Of a stretch of 64,000 nt of DNA, positions 22,311 to 36,082 are shown in pieces. Position numbers and translations under genes: made by a program. The stretch's first letter is position 1, and every line of letters starts with the position of its first letter. The notes beneath the pieces are model-generated. The model was not told where the DNA came from. It searched no databases and was given only the letters and a program-made list of their open reading frames with translations. Source of the stretch: Agromyces tardus (GTDB lineage Bacteria; Actinomycetota; Actinomycetes; Actinomycetales; Microbacteriaceae); the NCBI RefSeq assembly GCF_003710805.1, contig NZ_RHHB01000001.1, positions 186,001-250,000 on the forward strand. Direction: 5' to 3'.

Positions 22311-23113
22311 GCGCCACCGCCCCCATCAGCCCCACCGTCGCCGAGGCTCCCGCGCGAGCGCTCGTCGAGATCCGCCGGGTTCGCAAGAGCTTCGGCGCCC
22401 ACGAGGTGCTCCGCGACGTCTCGCTCGCGGTGCCCGAGGGCACGGTGACCGTACTGCTCGGGCCCTCGGGATCCGGCAAGTCCACGCTGCTGCGCTGCAT
22501 CAACCACCTCGAGACGATCGACGGGGGCCGCATCATCGTCGATGGCGAGCTCATCGGCTACCGGCAGGCCGGGCACAACATCCATGAGATGACGCCGAAG
22601 CAGATCGCGAGGCAGCGGCGTGCGATCGGCATGGTGTTCCAGCGGTTCAACCTCTTCCCGCACCTGACCGCGCTCGAGAACATCACCGAGGCGCCGATCG
22701 GGATCGGGGGCGTGCCGCGGGCGCGGGCCAGGGCGCGGGCGAACGAGTTGCTCGACCGCGTGGGCCTCGCCGCGTTCGCCGGGCACTACCCGGCGCAGCT
22801 CTCGGGCGGACAGCAGCAACGCGTCGCGATCGCGAGGGCACTCGCCATGGATCCGAAGCTCATGCTGTTCGACGAGCCCACGTCGGCGCTCGACCCCGAG
22901 CTCGTGGGGGACGTGCTCGACGTCATGCGCGAGCTCGCCCGCGACGGCATGACCATGATCGTCGTGACCCACGAGATCGGCTTCGCGCGGGGTGTCGCCG
23001 ACCAGGTGGTGTTCATGGACGGCGGGGTCGTCGTCGAGGCCGGCCGCCCCGAGGACGTGCTCGACCATCCGCAGCGCCAGCGCACCCGCAACTTCCTGGA
23101 GAGCGTGCGCTAG
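22307..23113 (+). CDS. Amino-acid ABC transporter ATP-binding protein (GlnQ type)
   Basis: A 268-residue ABC ATPase. Walker A reads GPSGSGKST, the Q-loop [10 protein letters not shown], the signature LSGGQQQR, Walker [13 protein letters not shown] and the H-loop VVTHEIGF. This pattern, especially [18 protein letters not shown], is diagnostic of the polar amino-acid uptake family. Its ATG overlaps the permease stop by four bases. With the receptor and permease it forms a complete importer, unlike the sugar system upstream. Confidence 0.95.
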
Positions 23114-23120
23114 CCGCGTC

Positions 23121-23492
23121 TCAGCCCTCGGCAGGCTCCCCGCGGTTCCAGCGGGTGAGCTTGCCGGGGGCCGACGACAGCCAGACGTCGCCGATCGAGC
23201 CGTCGGGTTCCACGCCGATGCAGAGCACGCCGACGACCTCGCCGCCGGGTCGGCGCAGCACGAGCCCGGGCCCGCCGTTCACCCGGACGGGTTCGAGCGA
23301 GGCATCCGGATGCCGCATCCGCCGGGTTCTCAGCGCAGGGATGACGCTCGCCCGTCCCTGCTCCGATCCGCCGGTGTCGTCGCCGGTGTCGACCACCATG
23401 CGCACGGCGTCGCTCAGCAGGCGCGCCAGCGCCACGTCGTCGCCCTGATCGAGCGCGGCGATGAGGCGGGCGGCGACGTCGTCACGCGGCAC
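23121..23492 (-). CDS. NTF2/SnoaL-like small protein encoded after an ECF41 sigma factor
   Basis: A 123-residue protein with a GTG start that overlaps the end of the sigma-factor gene by 11 bases, so it is translationally coupled. The sequence ([34 protein letters not shown]... [43 protein letters not shown]) resembles the SnoaL/NTF2-like domain that ECF41 sigma factors carry at their own C-terminus. It may therefore act as a free partner or modulator of the sigma factor; this is inference. It shares no readable catalytic residues with SnoaL cyclases. Confidence 0.7.
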
Positions 23493-24360
23493 GATGGGTC
23501 ACGGCGGCGAGCTTGTGGGGGTTCATCATCCAGAGCACCTGGTCGATGCCGTCGGCGGAGGCGACGACGGTGAGCACCGCCATCGTGGTGCCGTCCTTCG
23601 ACAGCACGACCGCAGGCTGGCCGTTGGCGACCGTCTCGGTGACCGACACGCCGTCCCAGAAGTGCGTGTGGAACGCGCGCACGAACTTCGCGACCGTCTC
23701 CCGGCCACGCACCGGGAACTTCGAGGCGCGCACGACGCCGCCGCCATCGGAGTACGACACGACGTCCTCGGCGAAGAGCCGCTCGAGCTCGTCGAGGTCG
23801 CCGGTCTTCGCGGCGCTCACGAACGCGGTGAGCAGGCGACGCTGCTCCTGCTGGGAGACCTCGCGTCGTCGCTCGCCGGCGAGGTGCTTGCGAGCACGGC
23901 TGACGAGCTGGCGGGCAGCTGGCTCGGAGAGCTGCACGATGTCGCAGATCTGCGGGTACGAGTAGGCGAACGCCTCGCGCAGCACGTACGCCGCCCGCTC
24001 GGTCGGCGTGAGCCGCTCGAGCATGACCAGCACCGCGAATCCGAGCGCCTCGGCTCGCTCGGCGCCGAGGGTGGGGTCGTTGCTCGTGTCGACGGGCTCC
24101 GGCAACCAGGGGCCGATGTACGTCTCGCGGCGCACGCGGGCCGACTGCAGCGCGTTGATGGCGAGCCGGGTGGTGGCGGTGGCGAGGAAGGCCGCCGGTT
24201 CCAGCACGACGGAACGGTCGGTGCCCTGCCAGCGCAGCCAGGTCTCCTGCACGATGTCCTCGGCCTCGGATGCGCTGCCGAGCATGCGGTAGGCGATGCC
24301 GAAGAGACGGGGTCGCACGGCTTGGAAGACGTCGAGCGCGTCGTCGAGGTTCGCATCCAT
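23482..24360 (-). CDS. ECF41-group sigma factor (SigJ-like)
   Basis: A 292-residue ECF sigma factor. Region 2 is VRPRLFGIAYRMLGSASEAEDIVQETWLRW and region 4 is LTPTERAAYVLREAFAYSYPQICDIVQLSEPAARQLVSRARKHL. The linker holds the ECF41 hallmark WLPEP, and the C-terminal SnoaL-like extension has SYSDGGG and NPHKL, close to the group's DGGGK and NPDKL. In ECF41 proteins this extension acts as a built-in regulator, with no separate anti-sigma factor. It is the fourth gene of a five-gene unit; its partners are two NAD(P)-binding proteins and a hydrolase, the oxidoreductase class usually linked to ECF41. Confidence 0.92.
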   Translation of the reverse strand: MDANLDDALDVFQAVRPRLFGIAYRMLGSASEAEDIVQETWLRWQGTDRSVVLEPAAFLATATTRLAINALQSARVRRETYIGPWLPEPVDTSNDPTLGAERAEALGFAVLVMLERLTPTERAAYVLREAFAYSYPQICDIVQLSEPAARQLVSRARKHLAGERRREVSQQEQRRLLTAFVSAAKTGDLDELERLFAEDVVSYSDGGGVVRASKFPVRGRETVAKFVRAFHTHFWDGVSVTETVANGQPAVVLSKDGTTMAVLTVVASADGIDQVLWMMNPHKLAAVTHRAA

Positions 24361-24372
24361 GTGGCGATCCTG

Positions 24373-25224
24373 TCAGTCGGCCGACGGGGCCGACACGGCT
24401 GACGGGGCCGACACGGCTGAGGGGGCCGACACGGCTGCGGGGGCCGACCCGGCCGACGCGCCACCGACCGGCCGGCCGGTGGCCGCGAGCCACTCGTCGA
24501 ACCGAGTCGGCGCGATCGTCGCGTCGGAGCCGGGAAGGAGCTCGCGCTCGTCGAGGTCGGTGCCGAAGTAGCGCGCGAGCGGGTCCTCGACCACCTCGCG
24601 CGGGTCTCGCCGCATCTGCAGCGCCCGTCGCACGATCTCCTCGAGTCGGAACTGCTCGGGGCCGGCGAACTCCACGATGCCGTTGAGCGGCGAGCCGGTG
24701 GCGGTGTCGGCCACCGCGGCGGCGACATCGTCAGCGGCCATCGGCTGGACGAGGGCGTCGGCGAGGCGCACGGTGTCACGGCTGGTCGCGGCATCCGCGA
24801 TGTGCGGGAGGAACTCGAAGAACTGGGTGGCGTGCACGATCGTGTACGGCTGTCCCGACCGGCGGATGAGCTGCTCCTGGGCCGCCTTCGCGGCGAAGTA
24901 GCCGCGCTCGGTGCGCGCCAGCCGATCGGTGCCGACGACCGAGAGGGCGAGGTGGTGGCGCACGCCTGCCGCGGCGCCGTACGTGAGCAGGTTGAGGGTC
25001 GACCCGTAGAAGAAGTCCTTCGCGCCGCGCTCGTCGAGGTACCCGGAGTTCGAGACGTCGATGACCGCGATCGCCCCGGCGAGGGCCTCCGCGAGGCCCT
25101 CGCCGGTGTAGGAGTCGACCCCGGTCGCGCGCGACGCGGAGACGACCTCGTGGCCGTCGGCCGCGAGCCGCGCCACGAGTCGGGTGCCGATGAGGCCGGT
25201 GCCGCCGATGACCGCGATCTTCAT
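24373..25224 (-). CDS. NAD(P)-binding epimerase-like protein, ECF41 partner 2
   Basis: A 283-residue atypical SDR with the N-terminal motif IGGTGLIGTRLVARLAADGHEVV. Other shared features are AVIDVSNSGYL, HHLALSVVGTDRL, GYFAAKAAQEQLI and ATQFFEFL. It is closely similar to the gene directly upstream (25231-25989), so the pair arose by duplication. It belongs to the conserved oxidoreductase/epimerase genes associated with ECF41 sigma factors. The C-terminus ends in an extra tail of repeated PSAVSA units from an 18-bp tandem repeat, absent from the paralogue. It is followed by the sigma gene after 12 bases. The substrate is unknown. Confidence 0.88.
   Translation of the reverse strand: MKIAVIGGTGLIGTRLVARLAADGHEVVSASRATGVDSYTGEGLAEALAGAIAVIDVSNSGYLDERGAKDFFYGSTLNLLTYGAAAGVRHHLALSVVGTDRLARTERGYFAAKAAQEQLIRRSGQPYTIVHATQFFEFLPHIADAATSRDTVRLADALVQPMAADDVAAAVADTATGSPLNGIVEFAGPEQFRLEEIVRRALQMRRDPREVVEDPLARYFGTDLDERELLPGSDATIAPTRFDEWLAATGRPVGGASAGSAPAAVSAPSAVSAPSAVSAPSAD
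24383..24454. repeat. Four tandem 18-bp units in the 3' end of a coding sequence
   Basis: Units of GACGGGGCCGACACGGCT at 24383 and 24401 are identical; those at 24419 and 24437 carry one to a few changes. On the minus strand they encode SAPSAV-type hexapeptides at the end of the preceding protein. The multiple of three keeps the frame. Confidence 0.88.
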
Positions 25225-25230
25225 GGCGGG

Positions 25231-25989
25231 CTACCTCACCGTGGCCGTCTGGGCGGCGAGCCAGTCGGCGAACGTGGTCGTCGACAGCTGGGCCTCGGGC
25301 CCCGGCACGAGCTCGGTGCCCTCGAGACGAGTGCCGAAGTACGGCGCCTCGGGGTCGGAGATCACGGCGCGGGTGTCGCCCTTCGCCGCGAGTCCCGTGC
25401 GGATGAGCTCGTCCATGCCGATGCGCTCGGGCCCGCCGATCTCGAGGACGCCGTCGATCGGGTCGCCCGCGGCGACGCGCGCGACGGCTGCCGAGACATC
25501 CGCCGCGGCCATCGGCTGCATGAACCCGGTCGACACGCGTGCGGTGCCGTCGACGGTGACCTCGTCGGCGATGCGCCCGACGAACTCGTAGAACTGGGTC
25601 GCCCGCACGATCGAGTACGGCCGGCCCGAGTCCTCGATGAGCCGCTCCTGGGCGACCTTCGCGCGGAGGTACCCGCTGTCGGGCAGGCGGTCGCTGCCCA
25701 CGACGGAGAGCGCGACGTGGTGGGTGACGCCGGCATCGCGCTCGGCGGCGAGCAGGTTCGGGGTGGACGTCGTGAAGAACGCGAGCACGTCGTCGTCGGC
25801 GAACGACGGCGAGTTCGACACGTCGACGACCACGTTCGCGCCGACGAGCACCTCGGCGAGCCCCTCGCCGGTGATGGTGTTCACGCCGGAGTTCGGCGAG
25901 GCGGCGACGGCCTCATGGCCGTGCTCGGCGAGGAGTTCGACGACCTTGGATCCGATGAGGCCGGTGCCTCCGATGACGACGATCTTCAT
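25231..25989 (-). CDS. NAD(P)-binding epimerase-like protein, ECF41 partner 1
   Basis: A 252-residue paralogue of the downstream gene: IGGTGLIGSKVVELLAEHGHEAV, VVVDVSNSPSFAD, HHVALSVVGSDRL, GYLRAKVAQERLI, ATQFYEFV. It lacks the YxxxK signature and belongs to the NmrA/NAD-dependent epimerase group usually encoded beside ECF41 sigma genes. The start overlaps the hydrolase stop by four bases. An ECF41-type promoter motif lies 54 bases before its start, inside the upstream gene, so it can probably be transcribed independently of the hydrolase. Confidence 0.88.
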   Translation of the reverse strand: MKIVVIGGTGLIGSKVVELLAEHGHEAVAASPNSGVNTITGEGLAEVLVGANVVVDVSNSPSFADDDVLAFFTTSTPNLLAAERDAGVTHHVALSVVGSDRLPDSGYLRAKVAQERLIEDSGRPYSIVRATQFYEFVGRIADEVTVDGTARVSTGFMQPMAAADVSAAVARVAAGDPIDGVLEIGGPERIGMDELIRTGLAAKGDTRAVISDPEAPYFGTRLEGTELVPGPEAQLSTTTFADWLAAQTATVR

Positions 25990-26789
25990 GACTGGGTGCC
26001 TTCCATCAGGGCTGCGGCGAATCCGCTGCCGTCACGTAGCTCTGACCGGGCAGTCACCGGATCTGTGACGACGGCGACGGCATCGACGGCATCGATGATC
26101 GTGGCGGCGACCTCGTCGGGCCGCGAGACACTGGTCGCGTGCGAGGCTCCCGACAGCTCTCGCGTGCCGCGCGAGCCTGCGCGCTCGGCCCCGGCGCGGA
26201 ACACGGCGGCCGGGATGTTGCGGTCCTCGGAGCCGAACACGTGCCAGCTCGGCCGGTCGCGCCAGCCGGGAACGGGTGCCTGCACGGCGGCCGTCAGCGC
26301 CGCCTCGGTCGCGGGTCGCTGGGTCGCGCCCATCACGCCGGCCACCTGCGCCGGCACATCTGCGGCGAACTGCTCGTGGAAGCGGTCGCGGCGGATCACC
26401 AGCTCGACGCCGCCCGTCGAGATCGGGTGCGCGTCGAGGGCCTCGGCGAGCGTGCTCCCCGGTGCGCTGGCCGAGAGCGAGAACGCGCTGTCGCCCGGCT
26501 CGGGCACGAATGCCGAGACGTACACGAGTGCGACGACCCGGTCGTCGCCGGCGGATGCCTCGCTGATCACGAGTCCGCCGTAGGAGTGCCCGACGAGCAC
26601 GACGGGGCCGTCGACGGCGGCGATGACGTCGCGCACGTAGGCGGCGTCGCCGGCCAGGCTGCGAAGCGGGTTGGCGACGGCGACGGACGTGATCCCCGCG
26701 GCATGCAGGCGCTCGATCACGCCGGTCCAGCTGGCGGATTCGGCGAACGCCCCGTGCACGAGCACGACGGTCGGCTTCTGTTCTGACAT
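25986..26789 (-). CDS. Alpha/beta hydrolase, first gene of the ECF41 unit
   Basis: A 267-residue alpha/beta hydrolase with VVLVHGAFAESASW (oxyanion region), nucleophile elbow GHSYGG (Ser69), acid region SEDRNIPA and a catalytic His in SGASHATSVSRP. This is a common actinobacterial family often found near oxidoreductases; its substrate is unknown. No signal peptide is seen. Its last codons overlap the start of the next gene. An ECF41-type promoter motif is 52 bases before the ATG. The C-terminal region resembles the broken hydrolase at 836-1090. Confidence 0.88.
   Translation of the reverse strand: MSEQKPTVVLVHGAFAESASWTGVIERLHAAGITSVAVANPLRSLAGDAAYVRDVIAAVDGPVVLVGHSYGGLVISEASAGDDRVVALVYVSAFVPEPGDSAFSLSASAPGSTLAEALDAHPISTGGVELVIRRDRFHEQFAADVPAQVAGVMGATQRPATEAALTAAVQAPVPGWRDRPSWHVFGSEDRNIPAAVFRAGAERAGSRGTRELSGASHATSVSRPDEVAATIIDAVDAVAVVTDPVTARSELRDGSGFAAALMEGTQS
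26044..26070 (-). promoter_or_regulatory. ECF41-type promoter motif before the first NAD(P)-binding gene
   Basis: On the minus strand CGTCACA (26070-26064), 16 bases, GGTC (26047-26044). The described ECF41 consensus is TGTCACA-N16-CGTC, so each half differs at its first base only. It is 54 bases from the start codon at 25989. An identical pair of half-sites with the same spacing precedes the hydrolase gene. Confidence 0.7.
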
Positions 26790-26841
26790 GGTGCTGGTCC
26801 CTTCTCGACGGATGCCCGTGACCTACGGGCTCGATGACTCA

Positions 26842-26868
26842 GACCGATCAGGCGGAGCTGCTGTGACG
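26842..26868 (-). promoter_or_regulatory. ECF41-type promoter motif before the hydrolase gene
   Basis: On the minus strand CGTCACA (26868-26862), 16 bases, GGTC (26845-26842), 52 bases from the ATG at 26789. Half-sites and spacing are identical to the motif at 26044-26070, while the 16-base spacers differ. This supports recognition by one sigma factor, most simply the ECF41 protein of this operon. Confidence 0.75.
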
Positions 26869-26937
26869 AATTCGCCGGATGTCGCGATGCGATCCGCGGG
26901 ATCATTGAGGGACGGACCGTCACTGGAAGGGGGCGCC

Positions 26938-27450
26938 ATGGCCTTCGACACTCCGAACGGCACTCGCGGGGCGCGCCAGCCCGGCCGCAACCGGCTCGAG
27001 CGCTGGGCGAACCTGCGCATGGCCGAGCACGTGCGGCGCACGGGCACCCGCCGCGGCGACATCCTCGTGCTCGTCACGGTCGGCAAGCGGTCGGGTCTCG
27101 AGCGGATGACGCCGGTGCGCTGGTTCCCCGATCCGGGTCACGACGACGGTCCCGAGGCCGGTCGCGGCGACGGCGACGGCGGCGACGGCGACACGCGGCT
27201 CATCGTGGCGTCGGCGGACGGGGCGGCGCGCAATCCCTCCTGGTACTACAACATCGCGGCGCACCCCGACCGGGTGCGCATCGAGTTCGCGGGCCGGCGC
27301 ATCGAGGTGATCCCCGAGCAGCTCCACGGCGCCGAACGCGATGCGGCCTGGCGACGGATCACGGCCCGGGCACGGGGCTTCGCGAAGTACGAGCAGACCA
27401 CCGACCGACAGATCCCGGTCATCCGCCTGACGCCGCGGGCGGGCGGCTAG
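26938..27450 (+). CDS. Deazaflavin-dependent nitroreductase-family protein (DDN type)
   Basis: A 170-residue protein with the DDN/DUF385 pattern: a basic N-terminus, RRGDILVLVTVGKRSGLERMTPVRWF, then LIVASADGAARNPSWYYNIAAHPDRVRIEFAGRRIEV. The GAARNPSWYYN segment is the hallmark of F420-binding split-barrel enzymes that reduce quinones or nitro compounds. A low-complexity insert (DGPEAGRGDGDGGDGD) interrupts the domain after about residue 65. A GGAAGGGGG lies before the ATG. It is transcribed divergently from the ECF41 unit. F420 use is inferred from family. Confidence 0.85.
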   Translation: MAFDTPNGTRGARQPGRNRLERWANLRMAEHVRRTGTRRGDILVLVTVGKRSGLERMTPVRWFPDPGHDDGPEAGRGDGDGGDGDTRLIVASADGAARNPSWYYNIAAHPDRVRIEFAGRRIEVIPEQLHGAERDAAWRRITARARGFAKYEQTTDRQIPVIRLTPRAGG

Positions 27451-34521: not shown

Positions 34522-34548
34522 TGTCACATCCCGCCCCCGGCCGGTGTC
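34522..34548 (+). promoter_or_regulatory. ECF41-type promoter motif before the CMD-like gene
   Basis: TGTCACA (34522-34528), 16 bases, TGTC (34545-34548), 42 bases before the ATG at 34591. The -35 element equals the published ECF41 consensus and the -10 differs only at its first base (CGTC to TGTC). It sits directly ahead of the oxidoreductase gene paired with the ECF41 sigma gene, as expected. Confidence 0.72.
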
Positions 34549-34590
34549 TCCATGTCGACGGCACGACACGACACGAGACCTGGAGCAGAC

Positions 34591-35178
34591 ATGAGCACCG
34601 CACGAATCCCCGCGACCGAGATCACCGGCGGCTACGGCATCCTGGTGAAGGCCGCGATGCGCAGGATGGTCGGGCGGGTGCCCGACTCGGTCGGCGTCCT
34701 GTGGCACAATCCCCGCGTGTTCACCGACCTGATCTCGATCGGGCGGAAGTCCGAGAAATGGCACGCGCTCGACGAGAACCTCGGGTCGTTCGCCCGGATG
34801 GCCGCGGCCGCCGAGGTCGGCTGCGGCTTCTGCCTCGACTTCAACTACTTCCTCGCCCACAACCGCGGGCTCGACGAGGCCAAGGCCCGCGAGGTTCCAC
34901 GGTGGCGCGAGTCCGACGTGTTCACCCCGCTCGAGCGGCGAGTGATGGAGTACGCCGAGGCGATGTGCCAGACCCCGGTCGTCGTCACCGACGAGCTCTC
35001 CGATGCGCTCCTCGCCGAGCTCGGACCGGCAGCGCTCCTGGAACTGGCCGCCGCGGTGGGCCTCATGAACGCGACGGCGCGCATGAACCTCGCCCTCGGC
35101 ATCCGCTCGGACCACTACTCGGATGCGTGCGGCCTGCCGCCGCTCGCCACCCGCTCGGCCGTCGCCGGTGCCGCGTAG
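34591..35178 (+). CDS. Carboxymuconolactone decarboxylase/AhpD-like protein, ECF41 partner
   Basis: A 195-residue CMD-family protein. The redox motif CGFC at about residues 75-78 (EVGCGFCLDFNYFLAHNRGLDEAK) is the AhpD-type CxxC with downstream histidine, so peroxidase-linked or disulfide-relay activity is more likely than decarboxylation. The remainder (FTPLERRVMEYAEAMCQTPVVVTDELSDALLAELGPAALLELAAAVGLMNATARMNLALGI) is the standard helical bundle. The start at 34591 follows TGGAG. CMD proteins are among the commonest genes linked to ECF41, and the sigma gene starts ten bases after its stop. Confidence 0.92.
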   Translation: MSTARIPATEITGGYGILVKAAMRRMVGRVPDSVGVLWHNPRVFTDLISIGRKSEKWHALDENLGSFARMAAAAEVGCGFCLDFNYFLAHNRGLDEAKAREVPRWRESDVFTPLERRVMEYAEAMCQTPVVVTDELSDALLAELGPAALLELAAAVGLMNATARMNLALGIRSDHYSDACGLPPLATRSAVAGAA

Positions 35179-35188
35179 GCTGCCCGTC

Positions 35189-36082
35189 ATGAGCAGTTCC
35201 GCCGGCACCGCCGCCGACCAGTTCGTCCTCCACCGCAGCCTGCTCTTCACGGTCGCGTACGAGCTGCTCGGCTCGGCCGCCGACGCCGAGGACGTGCTCC
35301 AGGAGTCCTGGCTGCGCTGGGCCGGCGTCGACCACGACGGGGTGCGAGACCCGCGCGCCTACCTCGTGCGCATCGTGACCCGGCAGTCGCTCAACCACCT
35401 GCGCACCGTCTCGCGCCGTCGCGAGGAGTACGTGGGCGAGTGGCTGCCCGAGCCGCTGCTGACGCGTCCGGATGTCGCGGACGACGTCGAACTCGCCGAG
35501 AGCCTCTCGGTGGCGATGCTCACCGTGCTCGAGACGCTCGGGCCGGCCGAGCGGGCGGTGTTCGTGCTGCGCGAGGTCTTCGACCTGCCCTACGACGAGA
35601 TCGCGGACGCGGTCGGCAAGACGCCTGCCGCGGTCCGGCAGATCGCGCATCGGGCGAAGGACCACGTGGCGGCGCGCCGCCCGCGCATCCGGGTGGACCC
35701 CACCGAACAGGAGCAGGTGGTCGAGCGCTTCCTCGCGGCGTTCAACACCGGTGACCTGCAGGGTCTCATGGACGTGCTCGCACCAGATGTCGTGGCGGTC
35801 GCCGATGGCGGCGGGAAGGTCCGGGGCGCAGCTCGACGACCGATCGTCGGGGCGGCGAAGCTCGCGGCGTACCTGCTCGGCAGCATGGCGAAGTTCGACG
35901 TGCACCCCGTGGCCACGCCCGCGTGGGTCAACGGGGCGCGCGGCGCCCGGATCGAGGTCGGCGGCGAGCTCGCCGCCGCGGTCAGCGTGACCGTCGAGCA
36001 CGGGCGCATCACCCGCATCTTCTCGATCGCGAACCCCGACAAGCTGGCGCGGCTCGACGCCGAGGCGAGCCTCACGCGCTGA
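35189..36082 (+). CDS. sigJ: ECF41-group sigma factor SigJ-like
   Basis: A 297-residue ECF sigma factor: region 2 LHRSLLFTVAYELLGSAADAEDVLQESWLRW, linker WLPEP, region 4 LGPAERAVFVLREVFDLPYDEIADAVGKTPAAVRQIAHRAKDHV, then a SnoaL-like C-terminal domain with both group motifs intact, ADGGGK and NPDKL. In the described ECF41 members the C-terminal domain regulates activity in place of an anti-sigma factor. Together with the CMD-like gene and the motif at 34522 it forms a minimal regulon. It is a second, distinct ECF41 copy in the window; the other (23482-24360) has the divergent DGGGV and NPHKL versions. Confidence 0.94.
   Translation: MSSSAGTAADQFVLHRSLLFTVAYELLGSAADAEDVLQESWLRWAGVDHDGVRDPRAYLVRIVTRQSLNHLRTVSRRREEYVGEWLPEPLLTRPDVADDVELAESLSVAMLTVLETLGPAERAVFVLREVFDLPYDEIADAVGKTPAAVRQIAHRAKDHVAARRPRIRVDPTEQEQVVERFLAAFNTGDLQGLMDVLAPDVVAVADGGGKVRGAARRPIVGAAKLAAYLLGSMAKFDVHPVATPAWVNGARGARIEVGGELAAAVSVTVEHGRITRIFSIANPDKLARLDAEASLTR

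Follow-up and report, generated by a model that had tools for sequence, protein, structure and literature searches.

Two copies of the motif CGTCACA-N16-GGTC in the Agromyces tardus window, by which we mean the whole 64,000-nucleotide stretch of DNA that was analysed, are very probably promoters for a class-A ECF41 sigma factor whose transcription units were rearranged into one operon, in which the sigma gene would be reached by read-through and would feed back on itself. We put the probability of this reading at about 0.88. The initial annotation had taken the two sites for ECF41-type promoters of an oxidoreductase operon; the comparison of sequences supports that interpretation, and promoter activity is what we infer from it.

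Two motifs and a five-gene operon

The sites and genes concerned are the following.

26842..26868, minus strand: putative class-A ECF41 promoter 1, CGTCACA-N16-GGTC then TGAGT; 52 nt upstream of the hydrolase start (ATG at 26789)
26044..26070, minus strand: putative class-A ECF41 promoter 2, CGTCACA-N16-GGTC then AGAGCT; 54 nt upstream of the next start codon (ATG at 25989)
25986..26789, minus strand: alpha/beta hydrolase (Abhydrolase_6), 267 aa; domain match, ORF
25231..25989, minus strand: NAD(P)-binding protein b (NAD_binding_10 / NmrA-like / Epimerase), 252 aa; domain matches
24373..25224, minus strand: NAD(P)-binding protein a, paralogue of b, 283 aa; domain matches
23482..24360, minus strand: ECF41 (SigJ-like) class-A sigma factor with fused SnoaL_2; domain and family profiles
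23121..23492, minus strand: free-standing SnoaL/NTF2-like protein, 123 aa, GTG start, candidate sigma partner; profiles, conservation

A pattern search of the window recovered the exact motif at 26868-26842 and 26070-26044, minus strand, with equal spacing and with spacers (GCAGCTCCGCCTGATC and GATCCGGTGACTGCCC) that have no mutual resemblance, just as the initial annotation had described. Its further statements, that the distances to the start codons are nearly equal (52 and 54 nt, counted from the last base of GGTC) and that one promoter lies inside the hydrolase gene, also hold: 26044..26070 falls within the 3' end of the ORF 25986..26789. Both sites show the features expected of ECF41 promoters, namely a −35 element of the TGTCACA type, a spacer of 16 ± 1 and a −10 element with a GTC or GTT core. 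The first −35 base is C at both, where the published consensus has T, and the first −10 base is G in place of the C of the canonical CGTC.

The genes follow one another in the order hydrolase, NAD(P)-binding b, NAD(P)-binding a, sigma and SnoaL, with junctions of a 4-nt overlap (ATGA), 6 nt, 12 nt and an 11-nt overlap, and no intrinsic-terminator-like site was found in 22900-27100. The SnoaL gene comes in addition to those listed in the initial annotation. Both NAD(P)-binding proteins match the NmrA and Epimerase models, the property by which COE genes were recognized in PMC3426412; for protein b the NmrA score of 26.4 is just under the cut-off of 27 and the Epimerase score is above its cut-off. 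Protein a ends in a repetitive C-terminal tail of about 30 residues, and its relatives align over residues 1-252 or so. The AVSAPS repeats of this tail are encoded by tandemly repeated DNA at 24373-24450 (minus strand), located just where a sigma promoter is absent.

How rare the motif is depends on how it is written. In the window YGTCACA-N16-GGTC occurs twice against a mean of 0.15 in 100 dinucleotide shuffles, none of which reaches two, and the looser YGTCACA-N17-GTC occurs three times (expected 0.39), at the two reported sites and at 34522-34548 on the plus strand. The genome-wide motif search proposed by the initial annotation gave a divided answer over 4.06 Mb. The bare motif has three matches and its backwards-read control two, and is therefore not rare enough by itself; the CGGTC form has two matches, both at the reported sites (control 1). 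With the conserved AGY after the −10 element added, the same two sites are the only perfect ones. A larger regulon was not found in the window genome: beyond these two sites, matches to the extended motif with up to two mismatches stay at control level (21 in all, control 18).

The sigma factor of the operon

The claim that an ECF41 sigma gene belongs to the same operon was borne out by family models, by the fused domain and by short motifs. The 23482-24360 protein matches Sigma70_r2, Sigma70_r4_2 and SnoaL_2 over the Pfam cut-offs, TIGR02957 with 350 bits (cut-off 323) and NF007214 (SigJ) with 285 (cut-off 271). Its linker YIGPWLPEP and its C-terminal NPHKL differ by one substitution each from the YVGPWLPEP and NPDKL given for ECF41 in PMC7730460. 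The nearest solved sequence is Mycobacterium tuberculosis SigJ (5xe7; E 6.6e-46, residues 10-283). Judged by its sequence, then, the protein is an ECF41 factor. A tree of 90 sigma proteins, from which L128 and L135 were left out, separates class A (48 rows, 100/99), class B (15 rows, 100/100) and class C (12 rows, 100/100), and the window protein falls in class A. The genome holds five matches to this class-A protein.

Conservation of the motif in relatives

We compared 60 Agromyces genomes, 30 of which, the window's own included, have a class-A sigma orthologue (E at most 3.5e-149, the remaining matches being no stronger than 4.7e-107). The locus set comprises 31 members: about 10-14 kb around the sigma gene in the 29 other genomes, a Leifsonia-labelled locus (L039) and the window. 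L034, L035 and L043 were dropped from the class-A counts as lying on the same contigs as whole-genome loci, and other Agromyces contig loci were likewise excluded as repeats. Under the filter used, three loci are without NAD(P)-binding b and 11 without the hydrolase.

In these 31 loci the GGTC motif stands upstream of 76 of the 79 hydrolase, sigma and NAD(P)-binding b genes, 72 times in exact form (GTCACA-16-GGTC whatever the first base: C 46, T 19, G 6, A 1) and four times with GTCACG. It precedes all 20 hydrolase genes (19 exact), all 28 NAD(P)-binding b genes and 28 of the 31 sigma genes (25 exact, three with GTCACG), those of the window, L110 and L115 being the exceptions. The motif lies mostly about 49-55 nt from the start codon, the hydrolase distances spanning 38-63 nt and those of NAD(P)-binding b 49-60 nt. 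Four among the 31 sigma loci have it at odd distances (9, 9, 64 and 86 nt), where the start codons are uncertain. Positions +3/+4 after GGTC are AG in nearly all class-A sites, and the spacers differ among relatives while the motif stays. The initial annotation had named one observation as evidence against promoters, namely close relatives that have the operon and lack the motif; this was not seen: NAD(P)-binding b retains it in 27/27 and the hydrolase in 19/19 (18 exact, one GTCACG). Part of this upstream conservation is inheritance. The idea that the sigma factor regulates itself, put forward in the same place, is strengthened by comparison, as in the relatives alone 28 of 30 sigma genes have their own upstream motif (25 exact, three GTCACG).

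The CGGTC form also follows the sigma factor from genome to genome. All 30 genomes with the orthologue contain such sites, 128 in total (control 3), and 7 of the 30 without it contain 11 (control 4); these counts are not independent of gene content, because genomes without the orthologue mostly also lack the cluster.

A putative promoter captured by rearrangement

The usual order in the relatives is hydrolase, sigma, SnoaL, NAD(P)-binding b and NAD(P)-binding a, some parts being absent in some of them, and the order of the window occurs in none of the 30 other loci. The hydrolase has 267 aa in the window vs 244-246 aa in 19 relatives, and the promoter and leader of NAD(P)-binding b supply its last 30 or so codons. 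Going along the gene, the match to the hydrolase ends of the relatives stops about 15 bases short of the second −35 element; the DNA beyond that point matches their NAD(P)-binding b upstream region, most often from the first −35 bases.

26071..26087, minus strand: approximate rearrangement breakpoint, homology switch from hydrolase to NAD(P)-binding b promoter

This interval corresponds to query positions about 75-91 of the fragment compared, single relatives giving 54 to 112. The hydrolase ORF thus contains promoter 2 because it now runs into the promoter and leader DNA of another gene. By these alignments the two promoters go back to two distinct ancestral promoters, each being the orthologue of one. 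That they might be duplicates of one another was rejected, since each resembles the same-gene promoter of the relatives and the spacers are unrelated.

The mechanism that we propose starts from the relatives, where the class-A factor would act on as many as three adjacent units. Every unit would be transcribed from a separate [T/C]GTCACA-N16-CGGTC promoter, placed some 50-55 nt ahead of its start codon. The ancestral units would be the hydrolase, the sigma gene with the free-standing SnoaL gene, and the pair of NAD(P)-binding genes, and a rearrangement in the window genome would have joined them into a single five-gene operon. NAD(P)-binding b would have moved with its own promoter, the break falling a little before the −35 element, and the sigma gene, relocated behind NAD(P)-binding a, would have lost its own. 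Promoter 1 would then serve all five proteins and promoter 2 all except the hydrolase, and the sigma factor would feed back on itself via read-through. As its gene has no upstream motif of its own, autoregulation in the window genome would proceed by read-through only; an undetected Rho-dependent terminator could block read-through into it. The case would illustrate the collapse of a regulon into a single operon, in which the gene upstream has taken a promoter into its coding sequence.

ECF41 classes and their −10 elements

A second ECF41 system lies 8 kb away in the same window.

34522..34548, plus strand: putative class-B ECF41 promoter, TGTCACA-N16-TGTC then TCCATG; 42 nt before the carboxymuconolactone decarboxylase gene
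34591..35178, plus strand: carboxymuconolactone decarboxylase-family gene; CMD profile over cut-off
35189..36082, plus strand: second ECF41 sigma factor (class B), 297 aa; profile, sigma tree

Taken as a whole, 34522-36082 (plus strand) has the look of a textbook ECF41 locus, a decarboxylase gene followed by the sigma gene. The class-B promoters have TGTC in 15/15 Agromyces loci (two with a GTCACG −35 element) and the class-C promoters CGTC in 12/12, always with a spacer of 16. The −35 element and the 16-bp spacing are thus common to classes A, B and C, and the differences lie in the −10 element, in its first base and in the flanks. The constancy of the −10 element in classes B and C is partly inherited, because each rests on one orthologous target gene; unlike these, class A rests on several unrelated targets. 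Going by these sites, the mismatch with the published CGTC is common to the whole class-A sigma subclass. Classes coexist: G018 has all three (L101, L121, L124), and in G031 classes A and B lie within about 5 kb of each other. In the window, GGTC vs TGTC may keep the class-A and class-B systems apart.

Residues 61, 66 and 69 of region 2.4 separate the classes, being T/L/N in A, R/Q/N in B and T/L/D in C. They are candidate determinants of −10 specificity, by inference from the alignment; in structures of other ECF factors, as presented in PMC6411747, region 2 reads the corresponding part of the promoter. No subgroup-specific ECF41 −10 elements were found in the literature searched, of which parts were accessible, and the wider ECF literature may describe them. 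The classes form a natural series of sister sigma factors with one half of the promoter in common and the other half different, so that −10 specificity is testable by swapping single bases and a few region 2.4 residues.

From this we would tentatively suggest a more general picture, which we hold to be somewhat short of an even chance: coexisting ECF41 paralogues would be insulated by the first base and the flanks of the −10 element (CCGGTCnnAGY, GGTGTCTnCATG and nnCGTCGnAGG) on a common −35 element and spacing, class A would add a trans-acting SnoaL subunit and several units, and ECF41 systems would not always have one target and one component.

Two further observations concern the other classes. 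L142 (G000:C1:335557-336435) and nine others make up class D, a fourth class of SnoaL-bearing sigma factors (10 tree rows), near whose genes no convincing promoter was found. The class-C epimerase gene of L120 seems disrupted: its tblastn match begins at residue 119, and the ORF after the promoter has 137 aa.

Alternative explanations

Chance matches in a G+C-rich genome would account for a bare motif whose genome-wide count hardly exceeds that of its backwards control, and this origin was rejected as scarcely credible for sites that no window shuffle reproduces and whose orthologues are kept in the relatives. The gene order of the window may be a misassembly. Another possibility is that both sites are conserved and only the upstream one is active, the internal one being a relic carried along in the rearrangement: it is now coding, and it lies downstream of another promoter for the same genes. 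Its motif and the following AGAGCT are nevertheless intact, 54 nt from the start codon as in relatives, which is weak evidence, and over the 90 bases that begin with its −35 element the identity to the functional position is 84-90% in L110, L108 and L096. On balance we consider an inactive internal site unlikely.

It is also conceivable that the sites are read by a sigma factor other than that of the operon, such as a class-B or class-D ECF41 paralogue or a different ECF. Five matches to the sigma factor are present in the genome, a class-B locus is close by, and the −35 element is identical in classes A, B and C. However, class B is tied to TGTC and class C to CGTC without exception in the loci compared, and 28 of the 30 genomes without a class-A orthologue do have a weaker sigma match, yet few sites of the CGGTC form (11). 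Reading by another factor is in our opinion very improbable, and we retain the class-A factor of the operon itself as the one that would recognize both promoters.

The free-standing SnoaL protein

The SnoaL gene overlaps the sigma stop codon in 31/31 loci, by 11 nt in the window; the extent of 4-14 nt depends on the choice of start, here the first in-frame start near the sigma stop. Each of the 30 genomes that have the sigma orthologue also encodes this protein (E at most 2.5e-22). Among the genomes that lack the orthologue, the strongest match reaches 9.4e-9 and, by its coordinates, falls within another sigma gene. Outside the genus, 4 of 13 class-A loci have the gene. The predicted structure is confident (pLDDT 90.7), and the order of helices and strands in this model suggests a SnoaL/NTF2 fold. 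A PDB profile search placed SigJ first, but only at E 0.11. D-x-G-D and KLxxWN are conserved in the protein, the latter resembling the NPDKL end of the fused domains.

That the protein arose by recent duplication of the C-terminal domain of the sigma factor was rejected: all 31 proteins cluster together, apart from the 90 fused domains, with an SH-aLRT of 100, in a quick tree of 129 columns, few for so many rows. From position and co-occurrence, the SnoaL protein most likely binds the sigma factor or competes with its fused domain, which makes it a candidate regulator of sigma.

Further sites of the class-A type

In the relatives, further class-A sites stand before genes for GNAT-type acetyltransferases, another alpha/beta hydrolase, NmrA-like proteins and a pyridine nucleotide-disulphide oxidoreductase, among others. 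Some motif sites do not look like promoters. Among 44 off-cluster CGGTC-form sites from 40 fetched stretches, a subset (G059:C20, for example, was left out), 15 combine [AG][GC] at +3/+4 with an ORF of 130 aa or more that starts 15-85 nt beyond the site, and 29 fail at least one of the two. Divergent pairs of putative class-A promoters upstream of the hydrolase in L104, L106, L108, L102 and L097 would feed genes on both sides (acetyltransferase-like, hydrolases).

The third genome match of the bare motif is of another sort. At L003:1501-1527 (G000:C23:193308), TGTCACA-N16-GGTC with GCGGGGTC stands about 45 nt before a possible membrane-protein gene, and its −10 region reads GGGGTC. Similar sites occur in G010 and G012, without a class-A orthologue, and in G029, with one. 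We set this site outside the class-A system because the GGGGTC form is also found in genomes without the orthologue; it may belong to another regulator.

Comparison with known systems

The closest precedents are the ECF41 systems of Bacillus licheniformis (ydfG) and Rhodobacter sphaeroides (RSP_0606) described by Wecke et al. 2012 (PMC3426412), where promoters of the form TGTCACA-n16-CGTC/TGTT before COE genes were mapped and shown to be sigma-dependent in the two bacteria. The system examined here is like them in the sigma2-sigma4 core with a fused SnoaL-type domain, in an NmrA/Epimerase-type target gene adjoining the sigma gene, in the GTCACA −35 element, 16-bp spacer and GTC/GTT −10 core, and in the position of the motif before the targets and often before the sigma gene. 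It differs in a −10 element of GGTC where the earlier work gives CGTC as the consensus and TGTT and CGTC as mapped, and in that two promoters, one of them inside an ORF, would feed one operon. In addition, several units carry the motif in the relatives, whereas ECF41 factors were concluded to control generally one gene or operon (PMC3426412), as PMC6180224 also has it for the single target of Sinorhizobium meliloti RpoE9. As far as motif sites can tell, the window genome fits this one-operon rule, from which several relatives seem to depart.

Sigma factors that carry a SnoaL domain occur widely among Actinobacteria, and little is known of their signals (PMC7730460, PMC8999054). M. tuberculosis SigJ (5xe7) has its SnoaL_2 domain only in fused form; here a free-standing SnoaL protein is encoded beside the sigma factor as well. 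A precedent for a partner protein of a SnoaL_2-bearing sigma factor exists in the ECF56 factor SigG1 of Streptomyces tsukubaensis and its RsfG, the co-transcribed product of the downstream gene, which binds SigG1 (PMC7730460). RsfG is reported there to be without a Pfam domain and belongs with a different ECF group, whereas the candidate presented here is SnoaL-like. Altogether, the promoters are of a known kind, that of ECF41, with a class-specific −10 element, a captured promoter and a SnoaL partner gene as variant features, and these findings question the rule of one target and no protein partner per ECF41 factor.
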